NCBI RefSeq assembly: GCF_002855515.1
Contig: NZ_PKRP01000003.1
Coordinates: forward strand, 124,001 to 188,000
From: Rhizobium sp. TH135
GTDB lineage: Bacteria > Pseudomonadota > Alphaproteobacteria > Rhizobiales > Rhizobiaceae
DNA: 64,000 bases
Direction of reading: 5' to 3'
Under the pieces are notes generated by a model. It was not told the DNA's origin and did not search any database. It was given only the letters and a program-made list of their open reading frames with translations. Numbering within the stretch: the stretch's first letter is position 1; each line of letters opens with the position of its first letter. Positions 36,530 to 39,908 of the stretch are shown in pieces. The position numbers and the translations under genes were made by a program.

Positions 36530-36841
36530 TCAAGAGGCCTTCTGCTTCGGCTGCACGGCAGGGGCCGCGATCATCTTGACCTTGGATTCGGCCAGCCCGT
36601 GATGGCCTTCCATATCGACGATCATGTGCCAGTGGCCGCTTTCCGGAATGACGATCTTGAGCGGCGATTTCTTCGCCACGCCGCCGAGAAACTTGTAATC
36701 GAGCGTTTCCTTGAAGCGCTGGAAATTCGTCGGCGTCATCAGCCGCACATTGTTCACGGCCGACAGCGTCACCTCGATAATGGTGCCGGCGCGCTGTTCC
36801 TTCAGGTCGTAATGGGTGAAGCGGAAGGTCGGTTTGGACAT
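36530..36841 (-). CDS. DUF1883 domain protein
   Basis: 103 residues with the DUF1883 signature: FTHYDLKEQRAGTIIEVTLS, NVRLMTPTNFQRFKE and IVIPESGHWHMIVDMEGHHG. The domain is a small beta fold of unknown role, in other bacteria sometimes fused to TIR domains. It is convergent with the amine oxidase gene and stands alone. Confidence 0.85.
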   Translation of the reverse strand: MSKPTFRFTHYDLKEQRAGTIIEVTLSAVNNVRLMTPTNFQRFKETLDYKFLGGVAKKSPLKIVIPESGHWHMIVDMEGHHGLAESKVKMIAAPAVQPKQKAS

Positions 36842-36995
36842 TTCGCTCGGGTCTCCGTCCAGTCTTTTAATCTATCGTAATGTACCGCAAGGCCGTTAAG
36901 GAAGCGTTGGCCGGAGGGTGCCGAAGGGCCGGGCAGGGCGGACTTTTTTGGGACGCTGCGTTTAGCGGAATGAAAGAGGGACCTGCGTGTGCGAG

Positions 36996-37026
36996 GCCCA
37001 TCTCCCCCTTGGTGGGGGAGATGGGC
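36996..37026. repeat. Palindromic element with 13 bp perfect stem
   Basis: GCCCATCTCCCCC (36996-37008) and GGGGGAGATGGGC (37014-37026) form a perfect inverted repeat around TTGGT. The sequence has the character of the short intergenic palindromes that are abundant in rhizobial genomes. No U-tract follows. Confidence 0.7.
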
Positions 37027-37043
37027 TCCGCGCATTCCTAGCC

Positions 37044-37155
37044 CCCCATGCTGAGGTGCCCTCGCAAAGCGAGGGCCTCGAAGCATCCCTCGATGATGCT
37101 GTATCTGTGGCCTCGTCCTTCGAGGCCCGACTGTGTCGGGCACCTCAGGATGAGG
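37044..37155. repeat. Composite inverted repeat, RIME-like intergenic element
   Basis: The left arm (37051-37083, CTGAGGTGCCCTCGC then GGGCCTCGAAG) and the right arm (37118-37147, CTTCGAGGCCCGAC then GTCGGGCACCTCAG) are inverted copies. Each arm is itself a hairpin, and about 34 bases lie between. This double-hairpin layout resembles the rhizobial intergenic mosaic elements; the family name is from memory of such motifs, not from a search. Confidence 0.65.
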
Positions 37156-37344
37156 GGTGACCTATCGATGTCAAAAACCCCAAGCTTCGCCGCCGGTCGG
37201 GATTGCTCCCTCCGGGTCGGTTCATGCTTGTCTCGGACGAGGCGCCAGAAGCAACCTGTCTAAGTAGTTTTATGTGGCTCCTTCCGGCGCCCCGTTCGGC
37301 GTCTATTCCCGCTGCATGCGTCTCTCTGGCAAGGCGACGACGGT

Positions 37345-37380
37345 CTTCGGTCCTCGGGTCAGGCCCGAGGATGACCGAAG
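37345..37380. repeat. Single CCTCGGGTCA-type palindrome
   Basis: CTTCGG-TCCTCGGG and CCCGAGGA-TGACCGAAG are inverted copies around TCAGG. The core is the same TCCTCGGG/CCCGAGGA palindrome that forms the ends of the three larger elements at 37928-38812, so it may be a solo end of that family. Confidence 0.65.
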
Positions 37381-37927
37381 ATTGACCGGGCGCGGGTCCG
37401 GCTGCGGCGTCACATGATGACGCTTCAGCCTGGCCGGTGGCCCGGGAGGTTCCCGCCGGATGGTGCACCATTCCGACCGGGACCCTCGCCCGGGGGATGA
37501 TCGTCTGGCCATTGGCGGCCCGGCGCTCATCCCCGCCGTTTGTTTCGCCCCGCTGTCTGGATGTTCGCGACAGCGCTGGCGCCTTGTCTGTGTGCCTCTG
37601 AGGCACGTCCTTCCGATCAGGGGTTTCAGGCGTCGGGCATCCGACCGTTCACCATCACTTCCACCCCTTCGTCCGGAGGGAGACCGTTGCAGCAGGCCGG
37701 GGTTTTAGGTCTGCGACAACCCTCCATCCCGGCGCCGGCCCCGCCTCGCCTGACATCGCATCGTCAGGTGTATCCGAGGGCGGGACGGGGATGAGTGTAA
37801 AAGGGTGCAAATGGTGGGGGATGAAAAAACATGTCGGGGTTTGATTTTGTTCGGGATTTTGTCAAACTCGTCCCCCCCTTTTTTTCGGAAGACGGAGTGG
37901 TTTGAGGTGACTGTCTGGCCTCGGAAG

Positions 37928-38091
37928 GCTTGTGTCTGGATCCTCGGGTCAAGCCCGAGGATGACGACCTTCCTAGAGTGGAAGAGGGTATTCTCCTCAT
38001 GCGCTGTGCGATGGGAGCGGTGGAGGAGGATACCAGCCGCTCCCCCTCACTCCGTCATCCTCGGGCTTGACCCGAGGATCCAAACACAAGC
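37928..38091. repeat. MITE-like composite palindromic element, copy 1 (complete)
   Basis: A 164-base element with inverted ends: it begins GCTTGTGTCTGGATCC and ends GGATCCAAACACAAGC, and each end carries the TCCTCGGG-TCAAG-CCCGAGGATGACG palindrome (37941-37966 and 38055-38079). The interior also has inverted GGTATTCTCCTC and GAGGAGGATACC, so the whole unit can fold into one long interrupted stem. It stops 11 bases before the GIY-YIG start codon. It carries no coding capacity. Confidence 0.75.
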
Positions 38092-38102
38092 ACACTGCAC
38101 GC

Positions 38103-38384
38103 ATGGCGGGATATGTCTACATCGTCACCAGCCACAAACGCGGCACGCTCTATATCGGTGTGACATCCGATCTGGAGCGGCGGATCTACGAGCATCGGGA
38201 AGGCCAAACGCCGGGCTTCGCCTCCAAGTATGGCTGTCGGCAACTGGTCTGGTACGAGGAGCATGACCGCATTGGAACGGCGATCCAGAGGGAGAAGTCG
38301 CTAAAGCGCTGGTATCGGCAGTGGAAGATCGAGCTGATCGAGGGGTTCAATCCTGATTGGCGGGATTTGTATTTCGAGTTGTGA
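38103..38384 (+). CDS. Small GIY-YIG nuclease family protein
   Basis: 93-residue single-domain protein with GIY-YIG hallmarks: GYVYIVTS at residues 3-10, LYIGVTSDLERRIYEHREG at about 16-34 (the YIG element with catalytic Arg), and a conserved Glu in TAIQREKSLKRWYRQWKIEL. Members of this small family are of uncertain role, possibly DNA repair or mobile-element nucleases. The ATG at 38103 is chosen because the conserved MAGYVYI begins there; the upstream 12 codons lie in the palindromic element. The gene is boxed in by copies of that element. Confidence 0.88.
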   Translation: MAGYVYIVTSHKRGTLYIGVTSDLERRIYEHREGQTPGFASKYGCRQLVWYEEHDRIGTAIQREKSLKRWYRQWKIELIEGFNPDWRDLYFEL

Positions 38385-38411
38385 GGCTGTGCTTTCCGCC
38401 GCTGGTGAAGG

Positions 38412-38556
38412 GCTTGTGTCTGGATCCTCGGGTCATCCTCGGGTTAAACCCGAGCACGAGGATGACGACCGTTGGGGGAGTGGAAGGGTATTCTCCGCAG
38501 GCCTTGTGCTGTGAAGACGGTAGGGAAGAAGACCCAGCAGCGCCCCCATGCTCCGT
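38412..38556. repeat. MITE-like composite palindromic element, copy 2 (right end missing)
   Basis: It starts with GCTTGTGTCTGGATCCTCGG like copy 1, contains an extra nested TCATCCTCGGGTTAAACCCG palindrome as in copy 3, then GGTATTCTCCGCAGGC, and loses similarity after CTCCGTGAGG at about 38556. The right inverted end is absent, probably lost in the tandem duplication. Confidence 0.65.
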
Positions 38557-38633
38557 GAGGGCTGGCGGGATTTGGCATTACGAGTTGATGTTAGGGTTCC
38601 GGTGGCACTTGTGCCAGTCGCTGCCGCTGAAGG

Positions 38634-38812
38634 GCTTGTGTTTGGATCCTCGGGTCATCCTCGGGTTTAACCCGAGGACGAGGATGACGACTTTAGGGGA
38701 GTGGCTGGGTATTCTCCTCAGGCGTCGTGCGATGAAGACGGTAGAGGAGGATACCTGCAGCCTCCCCACCCTCGGTCATCCTCGGGTTTGACCCGAGGAT
38801 CCAAACACAGGC
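38634..38812. repeat. MITE-like composite palindromic element, copy 3 (complete)
   Basis: A 179-base element beginning GCTTGTGTTTGGATCCTCGG and ending CCGAGGATCCAAACACAGGC, with internal GGTATTCTCCTC and GAGGAGGATACC in inverted orientation as in copy 1. An additional nested palindrome in its left arm makes it 15 bases longer than copy 1. Confidence 0.72.
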
Positions 38813-38900
38813 CTTTTCGTTCACTTCAGCCTTCGATTTTGCAACCTTTCCTACAAAAGGGAGAGGTGTGGGTTAGAAGAGGTAGCTAGCCCCCATTAAT

Positions 38901-39908
38901 TCAGCCTCTTCGGCAGTGCGAAACTATATCGATCTGTGAAGACGCGTTACGTAAACTGAGCTTTTCAGGAATTTCAGTAGAATTCAAAGACGTAACCAGT
39001 GAGGGTGGCGCCTCGACGCCACTACCCATTATTTTTACAAATTTGTAACTAAGGTCTTGGCGTGTCATTACCTTCACATCCACTAGTCTACTGCGACGCT
39101 TTTCTTCCAGCCATGCGCCAATTATGGTTATTCTCGGCTGTTGGAAAAAGTCTCTAGTGAATGACAGGCATGCATCAATCTCTATCGCTGCGTTCATCGT
39201 TTTTAGGTACATGCCAGAGAGATTGGAGAACATCTGGTCGCTAGGCTGGGTTCTGACCGTCTTAACAGCGTAAATGAATTGCTCGATAAGGGTGAGGCGT
39301 TGGGAGAGTTGCCGCAAATTCCTGATCGATTCAGGCTCGGCAATCGTGGTGATTATAGTGTGATGTTCAAAGTCGCGTTGCCTTGTCGCGCTGCCGCCGA
39401 CTGATTTGATCTCGGACTGAAGAAGACGCCCTTTATTTCTTTGAAGATGGTTCATCAACTCAGTTACAGGTGCCTCGTAACGAAGGTGGATGTCAGCCCA
39501 TGCACGCTCCACATGGAAAACGATGGGCTTGTAGGAATTTATCCACGCTTCTACGGGTTCGATTGAGTTAGCCACTTCGAGGATTAAAAATCGGTCGAGA
39601 GCCCTCTTCGTCTTTGCCCGCAATTCCCCGGCGCATCGGCTCATCACGTCATTACCGAAGAACTCCTTCGCGCACGTGCTGCCAAAAAGTATTCTGTCAC
39701 CGCTTCCCAACAGACCAGTGATCCCATTTTTATGTCGGTGGGAGCCGCAGATGTGGCAGAAAATCTTGTGCTTTGCGCTTCGGTAAACGTTATCGAACAT
39801 CACCGCTTGGGGACGTTCGCTAAGCCTGATCTTAGGCCTCAACTGCTCTTGTTGATAAGGATCATCTGTAAACAGACGTTCATGGCGCAGGTAATCCCGA
39901 AAATGCAT
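38901..39908 (-). CDS. Hypothetical protein with a possible zinc-binding treble-clef motif
   Basis: 335 residues of no family I recognise. Near residues 51-80 it has C-x2-C (FCHICGSHRHKNG) and a later cysteine in FGSTCAKEFFG, a pattern that could bind zinc. The rest is mostly helical and charged (ELRAKTKRALDRFLILEVAN; LRQLSQRLTLIEQFIYAVKT). Base composition is clearly more AT-rich than its neighbours and it lies beside repeats, suggesting recent acquisition. GGAG lies before the ATG. Confidence 0.65.
   Translation of the reverse strand: MHFRDYLRHERLFTDDPYQQEQLRPKIRLSERPQAVMFDNVYRSAKHKIFCHICGSHRHKNGITGLLGSGDRILFGSTCAKEFFGNDVMSRCAGELRAKTKRALDRFLILEVANSIEPVEAWINSYKPIVFHVERAWADIHLRYEAPVTELMNHLQRNKGRLLQSEIKSVGGSATRQRDFEHHTIITTIAEPESIRNLRQLSQRLTLIEQFIYAVKTVRTQPSDQMFSNLSGMYLKTMNAAIEIDACLSFTRDFFQQPRITIIGAWLEEKRRSRLVDVKVMTRQDLSYKFVKIMGSGVEAPPSLVTSLNSTEIPEKLSLRNASSQIDIVSHCRRG

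Follow-up and report, generated by a model that had tools for sequence, protein, structure and literature searches.

The window analysed here is a 64,000-nucleotide stretch of DNA from Rhizobium sp. TH135. At positions 37928-38812 it contains a small GIY-YIG nuclease gene set among palindromic elements, and this arrangement raises the question of whether the nuclease moves the palindromes around it or is simply found in their company. The preliminary description reported elements of 164 and 179 bp and a truncated third, all with inverted ends, and coordinates and arms confirm them (Table 1). They likewise confirm the placement of the gene between elements: the ORF begins 11 bases past copy 1 and stops 27 bases short of the truncated copy. 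The inner inverted repeat of that description (GGTATTCTCCTC / GAGGAGGATACC) is located in copy 1. The terminal arms of copy 1 are 39 nt each and 97% complementary, and each end reads TGG-ATCCTCGGG-TCAAG-CCCGAGGAT-GACG or its reverse complement, a palindrome of 30 nt. Since each end is a palindrome with a CGTC tag, copy 1 amounts to two REPs with their CGTC tags turned inward. Elsewhere in the TH135 genome the element recurs at C10:328089 (96%), C10:47170 (85%), and C8:551873 (44-nt end only), and the GIY-YIG genes of this genome include one close and one 43% relative. No Rfam family reaches its gathering score within 36800-39300. A 335-aa ORF on the minus strand (38901-39908) adjoins the elements and is without a Pfam or NCBIfam match.

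Table 1. Features of the window at and around the GIY-YIG gene.
Feature	Position	Strand	Remark
~720-nt multicopy noncoding repeat	37169-37890	+	separate entity; 3' end carries element copy 1
CGTC-REP in one hairpin of the ~720-nt repeat	37349-37375	-	
Element copy 1	37928-38091	.	164 bp; two CGTC-REPs, inverted, CGTC inward, around an inner inverted repeat
CGTC-REP, left arm of copy 1	37937-37966	-	
Inner GGTATTCTCCTC	37987-37998	+	pairs with 38023-38034
Inner GAGGAGGATACC	38023-38034	-	pairs with 37987-37998
CGTC-REP directly upstream of the GIY-YIG gene	38053-38082	+	
GIY-YIG nuclease gene	38103-38384	+	93 aa, stand-alone catalytic domain
Truncated element copy, rearranged REP	38412-38556	.	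downstream side of the GIY-YIG gene
Element copy 3	38634-38812	.	179 bp; REP at right end on +

The palindromes themselves are composed of the CGTC tag, a 9-bp stem (ATCCTCGGG), a CTTGA loop, the second arm (CCCGAGGAT), and a CCA tail. As set out in the accessible text of Di Nocera 2013 (PMC3733652), the CGTC superfamily of REPs is defined by a CGTC or TGTC tag, a stem of 8-9 bp starting with AT, a loop of 4-5 nt, and a CCA tail; its dimers are known, and it is present in alphaproteobacteria. The window REPs have all of these in common with the superfamily, the AT-start stem and the dimers included, with the tag unpaired and the CCA-type tail opposite to it. The TH135 genome contains 17 copies of the window-type REP within 2 mismatches, a low number for a REP family; several of them are paired, 90-115 bp apart, and the family is thus dispersed and often dimeric. 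Judged by their sequence, the window palindromes are REPs of the CGTC superfamily. CGTC-REPs are found in many bacterial genomes and, as of 2013, were without an associated enzyme. In the available portion of the source they are reported to "apparently lack a dedicated transposase", and it was proposed either that the CGTC-REP transposase has vanished or that many enzymes move these REPs (PMC3733652). In contrast to the superfamily as described there, a specific gene partner is found here.

The 93-aa product of that gene matches Pfam PF01541 (E=1.2e-17) and contains the features that define the GIY-YIG superfamily: the GIY...YIG motif, a central Arg, and a C-terminal Glu. Residues Y6, Y17, G19, R27, H31, and E64 are invariant across 29 aligned family members. 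An AF2 model (mean pLDDT 94.9) finds its nearest solved folds in UPF0213 1zg2 (E=1.4e-4) and Slx1 6seh (E=1.3e-2), and the protein is predicted to be a stand-alone GIY-YIG nuclease of the Slx1/UPF0213 fold. Prokaryotic Slx1-like/UPF0213 nucleases (PDB 1zg2, 1ywl, 6seh) are alike in their stand-alone fold of ~90 aa and in their catalytic residues, and the accessible text of PMC1564403 cites a predicted role for them in double-strand break repair. Pfam gives only the GIY-YIG match and an overlapping T5orf172 match, with no separate DNA-binding domain, and neither an HUH motif nor the catalytic tyrosine of Y1 transposases is present by the same search. The clade of the window protein has a C-terminal NPxWxDLY segment. 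PADLOC returns nothing convincing (best E=0.022), and PHROGs no match at E <= 0.001; a phage origin is rejected, with 1 distant match among 50,697 phage records.

The palindrome-bracketed gene is one case of a wide pattern. Family matches at E <= 1e-10 are present in 31 of 60 related genomes, where a first look revealed REPs similarly placed on both sides of many matched genes. Among alphaproteobacterial genomes, 86 of 289 have a family match. The alphaproteobacterial set consists of 80 of the best 100 matches outside the TH135 genome (ranks 2-101), with flanks of up to 6 kb; 11 matches within ~1.4 kb of a contig start were left out, as were 9 others for space. These loci were chosen and fetched before any flank was scanned, and 77 of them are usable, one being without an open frame and two lying too near a contig edge. 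A strict script, which looks for a 9-bp stem, requires the tail, accepts a REP within 250 bp, and misses REPs with 4-nt loops, detects a REP on at least one side of 41/77 genes versus 32/486 control ORFs, and REPs on both sides of 22/77 genes versus 0/486 control ORFs from the same loci. With a relaxed script the corresponding counts are 56/77 versus 47/486 for at least one side and 40/77 versus 1/486 for both sides, counts that are not blind, since this script was written after the flanks of missed alphaproteobacterial loci had been seen. On shuffled flanks it scores 0/154. By the relaxed script, REP density is 3.57/kb within 250 bp of the gene and at most 0.15/kb in bins beyond 1.5 kb.

The strict counts and those from a second, named set are the safer ones; each detector was run equally on its own controls. 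The named set is made up of the best 80 of 573 confirmed matches, whose flanks were unseen when the script was written. Here REPs lie on at least one side of 53/80 genes (58/484 control ORFs) and on both sides of 33/80 (4/484), and the two-sided records include metagenome-assembled Neisseria, Deltaproteobacteria, Nitrospirota, Planctomycetes, and Parcubacteria. Of the 25 loci listed by a phylum-wide search, 24 are usable, with REPs on at least one side at 21/24 and on both sides at 14/24, figures to be set against only 4 control ORFs. Plasmid records with matches number 45; 11 loci were scanned, and the script found REPs at 5/8 and 2/3. The relaxed script detects no REP at 21/77 alphaproteobacterial and 27/80 named genes. 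Missed loci whose flanks were inspected by eye often have hairpins with longer loops or other tags, as in Mesorhizobium, which are not counted. CT-tailed REPs are missed as well: the second gene of G026 scored none, though its flanks show one on each side.

A sister subfamily of small GIY-YIG proteins of similar size gives a different picture. Of its 18 loci 17 are usable, and 0/17 have a REP within 250 bp on either side; its label, 'UPF0213-like', comes from a shorter, weaker match. Thus, the window clade is REP-flanked whereas the sampled sister subfamily is not, and of the GIY-YIG groups tested only this clade is bracketed by REPs. These counts bear on the idea that chance or ascertainment is at work, small intergenic genes simply sitting where REPs accumulate. 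REPs are indeed intergenic, but the control ORFs (1/486 two-sided) and the sister subfamily (0/17) contradict this explanation, to which we give practically no credence. The preliminary description had held that a gene no closer to the copies than chance would speak against its proposal; the bracketing exceeds that expectation by a wide margin (40/77 versus 1/486). On a Planktothrix plasmid, the neighbours of the gene are a type IIL restriction gene on one side and, on the other, drmA of a DISARM system; palindromes close by, judged by eye, are of another type.

The order of the unit is as follows: CGTC-hairpin-CCA, a short leader, the GIY-YIG gene, and TGG-hairpin-GACG. The nearest flanking REPs have opposite orientations in 35/40 of the two-sided alphaproteobacterial cases, 26/33 of the named, and 10/14 of the phylum-wide ones. 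Two REPs at one gene agree at 0.892 of their stem positions (n=40), versus 0.591 for REPs at different genes in one genome (n=22) and 0.587 between genomes. When partners were shuffled within 4 multi-copy genomes (11 genes), the observed match was reached in 57 of 20000 shuffles. Because stems match within a gene and not between paralogues, each paralogue in one cell carries its own matched pair. We also tested for a global link of protein sequence with REP stem sequence, and reject it as weak beyond close relatives: overall the Mantel r is 0.256, but it falls to 0.132 below 70% identity, where the highest of 500 shuffles is about the same, and to 0.053 below 60% identity (null sd 0.037).

The unit appears to be mobile: genes of this kind are found at many sites. 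By tblastn, 22 genes 72-100% identical to the window gene fall into 12 context groups, that is, groups with no common flanking ORF at >=60% identity; flanks of 3-6 kb were compared, shorter on one side at two loci (661 and 919 bp), so a few of the 12 groups could be one site. At the left edge, homology ends within 3 nt of GTC in 72/168 cross-context comparisons, extends beyond the REP in 30/168, and ends inside it in 66/168. At the right edge it ends at the GAC tag in 18/100 alignments, beyond it in 2, and before the REP in 80. Counted by context pair, the edge is at the tag in 23/45 pairs on the left and 6/21 on the right, the comparisons not being independent of one another. In the window, the recurrent left edge of the DNA common to genes at unrelated sites is the CGTC of the REP at 38053-38082. 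Since the common DNA often extends as far as CGTC and so covers the whole of the upstream REP, the REP appears to travel with the gene.

Sites with and without the unit are found at two independent loci. At one Sphingobium plasmid site with both flanks covered, the unit is present in 7/11 plasmids and absent from 4/11. In an alignment of three with and four without the unit, TYG64 has a single exact hairpin, CCGTCACCCCGGG-TCAAG-CCCGGGGTGACGG, formed from the outer arms of the two REPs; in TYG74 this fused hairpin is degraded, and the two other gene-less plasmids have a different sequence. In the Sinorhizobium gltA-lpxB gap, the unit is present in 1 record and absent from 3, and the one gene-less site that was aligned (K101) has a single hairpin there. 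The fused hairpin at gene-less sites could be a plain deletion between palindromes. In the gltA-lpxB gap of S. meliloti Ak57, a 3' gene fragment between its own REPs lies beside a full unit, in the manner of tandem or degraded copies. In Azospirillum lipoferum the gene is placed in the sufB-sufC gap and flanked on either side by REP pairs. Family nuclease genes occupy a sufB-like/sufC-like gap in both this species and G026 (the latter by eye), making the gap a possible recurrent site.

A single palindrome at a gene-less site is what the target of a homing-like gene might look like. In such a scheme, the gene is a selfish one: the nuclease cuts uninterrupted palindromes and its gene is copied in by break repair through the REP arms; the REPs would be the target and would multiply by other means. 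Some of the gene-less sites at the two loci are indeed a single palindrome, the arms of which flank the gene when it is present; REPs occur without the gene, and GIY-YIG homing endonucleases exist (PMC1564403, in its accessible text). However, the common DNA often takes in the full upstream REP up to CGTC, two of the four gene-less Sphingobium sites are without such a hairpin, and the Pfam search gives no separate DNA-binding domain. We consider it unlikely both that the gene homes in this way and that the REPs are just its target. The known homing endonucleases I-TevI and I-BmoI resemble the window protein in having a catalytic GIY-YIG domain and, if the nuclease is the mobiliser, in driving the mobility of their own gene, but they have a separate DNA-binding domain (NUMOD etc.), of which none is found in the 93-aa protein. 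The window unit also differs from them in having no intron or intein and in having palindromic ends that travel with the gene.

The preliminary description had called for empty sites in sister strains. Gene-less sites are available at the two loci above, but the home locus does not provide clean boundaries: as an exact empty site it is rejected, its gene-less genomes differing too much. Of the nine fetched genomes of the genus without the gene at the home locus, eight have no element match of >=60 bp, whereas 3/3 fetched genomes with the gene there have elements. At this locus, the gene-less G018 has a single REP of another type, and G027 has the long repeat and the element but no gene. For the R. 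tumorigenes and CIAT894 plasmids, there is no gene-less site among the matches listed. No target-site duplication is seen by eye in the unit flanks or at the gene-less sites, few of which are informative.

The reading that we favour, and hold to be somewhat better than an even chance, is that the window contains a REP-bounded mobile unit, of a class that is widespread, in which the nuclease is a hairpin-nicking mobiliser. The nuclease would be a structure-specific enzyme of the Slx1 kind; an Slx1-like fold next to hairpins suggests recognition of hairpins or cruciforms, and the REP would presumably be recognised as a hairpin in the single-stranded DNA of a fork or as a cruciform. Nicking would then occur at the CGTC boundary, with cut site, strand, and polarity all presumed, and the 3'-OH ends would be processed by host replication or recombination. 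In this way the unit as a whole might be excised or copied elsewhere, as might bare REPs and REP dimers with the same ends. To our knowledge, no covalent intermediate is expected of GIY-YIG chemistry, so strand transfer would need help. In this the nuclease would be unlike the HUH enzymes of REPtrons, which form a covalent intermediate (PMC8266576, accessible text). The preliminary description had proposed the nuclease as mobiliser by analogy with REP-associated transposases. That analogy, together with the bracketing, the clade specificity, and the CGTC edges, makes it the leading candidate for the mover of gene and palindromes; the moving itself is what we infer from them, as are the spread of bare REPs by this protein rather than another enzyme and the direction of the presence/absence events. 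What speaks against the nuclease as mover is that REPs persist in genomes without the gene and that no target-site duplication is seen.

The analogy is a good fit. REPtrons, which consist of GTAG-REPs and RAYT/TnpA-REP, likewise have small palindromic repeats with an unpaired tetranucleotide tag that occur as monomers or inverted dimers, and a nuclease gene that has REPs of its own type on both sides, with paralogues having distinct REPs (PMC3733652 and PMC8266576, in the portions accessible). However, the REPtron tag is GTAG and that of the window unit CGTC, and the REPtron enzyme is an HUH tyrosine transposase, whereas the window protein is a GIY-YIG protein of 93 aa with no HUH domain found. 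Most of the window-type units sampled are alphaproteobacterial, and records of other phyla are also among them. Thus, the REP-bounded unit may be regarded as analogous to RAYT REPtrons, with an unrelated nuclease, and is not filed as one. Tsy transposons also have a GIY-YIG nuclease gene within a bacterial mobile element, one that affects transposition, but it is a tyrosine recombinase that carries out Tsy transposition; the nuclease is dispensable, and no REP ends are described in the accessible text (PMC10293859). MITEs are likewise short noncoding elements with inverted ends; the window elements differ from them in that no target duplication is seen, the ends are hairpins, and no DDE transposase partner is identified.

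A link between a GIY-YIG gene and REPs is not stated in the open literature searched, with subscription papers and preprints lying outside that search. It is absent from the accessible text of PMC3733652, PMC1564403, PMC8266576, PMC12306157, PMC5082802, PMC10969869, PMC9465073, PMC4046053, and PMC10293859. A small, specific candidate with matched substrates makes CGTC-REP mobility a question for the bench. If the favoured reading is true, REP mobility has a second solution, different in its chemistry, and the small genes that now bear no more specific name than 'GIY-YIG nuclease family protein' or 'excinuclease ABC subunit C' would be drivers of selfish elements.

Within the genus of the window, the number of elements may have another source, the ~720-nt noncoding repeat. 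Besides the one at 37169-37890, own-genome copies are present at C10:327330, C8:551934 (minus strand), C6:160409, and C10:46419. The 3' end of the repeat carries the whole 164-bp element in 3/5 of these copies and its first 44 nt in 1/5. With the element at the 3' end of four of five repeat copies, its number here may reflect the repeat, and may owe more to it than to the nuclease. Of 36 genomes searched, all of them in the genus of the window, 15 match the repeat, at up to 10 places when fragments are counted; outside the genus, loci give only short or weak matches. An RNAalifold consensus of 12 copies has 169 pairs, 19 of them with compensatory changes, and a net covariation of +1.92, which is slightly unfavourable; the repeat may be a structured RNA. 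In these 12 aligned copies, the REP in one hairpin is present, absent, or flipped (by eye). REP-like palindromes vary in presence inside the otherwise conserved repeat, at the G010 repeat start and in the TH135 genome, and in a single one of the 12 copies an extra 20-nt palindrome follows TTGTC.

It is worth weighing whether the 164-bp elements owe their spread in the genus to the ~720-nt repeat, travelling at its 3' end, with no part played by the nuclease. Along with the four of five own-genome copies, two gene-less cases argue for this: in G017 the repeat lies beside REP dimers with no gene, and in G027 repeat and element occur without a home-locus gene. On the other hand, 8/9 gene-less home loci are without the element although 8/9 keep the repeat or pieces of it, the 3/3 fetched genomes with the home-locus gene do have elements, and CGTC-REPs are widespread outside the genus, where matches to the repeat are short or weak. 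Such a local origin is a serious alternative that we hold to be less likely than not.

If the nuclease of the favoured reading also spreads bare REPs, then REPs away from the gene become relevant. REPs of exactly the window type (A-type), lying away from any clade-A gene, are present in 6/7 genomes of the genus with such a gene and in 9/29 without one (p = 0.013). REPs of the second type (B-type) are present in 7/7 genomes with a clade-B gene (a pseudogene in one case) versus 15/29 without (p = 0.029); the second G026 copy was placed in clade B, being 95% identical to a clade-B member. The total REP count, which includes flanking REPs, has a median of 11 in the 17 genomes with a gene and 5 in the 19 without (p = 0.012). 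The gene is absent from G017, a genome with 20 REPs within 2 mismatches. The preliminary description had taken numerous copies in genomes without this clade as an argument against its proposal, and on this the result is mixed: A-type REPs favour genomes with the gene, 6/7 against 9/29, yet are found in genomes without it too.

REPs that persist without the gene would be expected if the gene were a passenger, either cargo or a palindrome-processing repair nuclease, with another enzyme or replication slippage spreading the CGTC-REPs. The closest solved folds, of the UPF0213 and Slx1 kind, fit such a role, as does the varying presence and orientation of REPs inside copies of an unrelated noncoding repeat, and in Tsy transposons the GIY-YIG nuclease is only an accessory to the tyrosine recombinase (PMC10293859, accessible text). 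However, it is self-mobilisation rather than housekeeping that predicts the absence of REPs from the sister subfamily (0/17), the matched pairs, the 12 contexts, and the CGTC edges, and a passenger role is improbable in our estimation. The favoured reading may be carried further, to a new class of transposable element whose sole protein is a GIY-YIG nuclease of ~90 residues that would recognise the CGTC-tagged hairpins at its own ends and mobilise both itself and the many orphan CGTC-REPs and REP dimers; we advance this tentatively, as a little short of an even chance. With the same reserve, at slightly under even odds, the nuclease would be the missing mobiliser of the CGTC superfamily in Proteobacteria and other phyla, independent of HUH transposases.

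The TH135 genome also contains three pairs of REPs of a CTTGT type, with CGTC outward, at C7:750700-750826, C8:558727-558861, and C10:131829-131949. The pairs are ~120-135 bp long, have largely different interiors, and contain no gene, an arrangement that is REPIN-like. Their ends are the same as those of the gene-bearing units of another nuclease clade.
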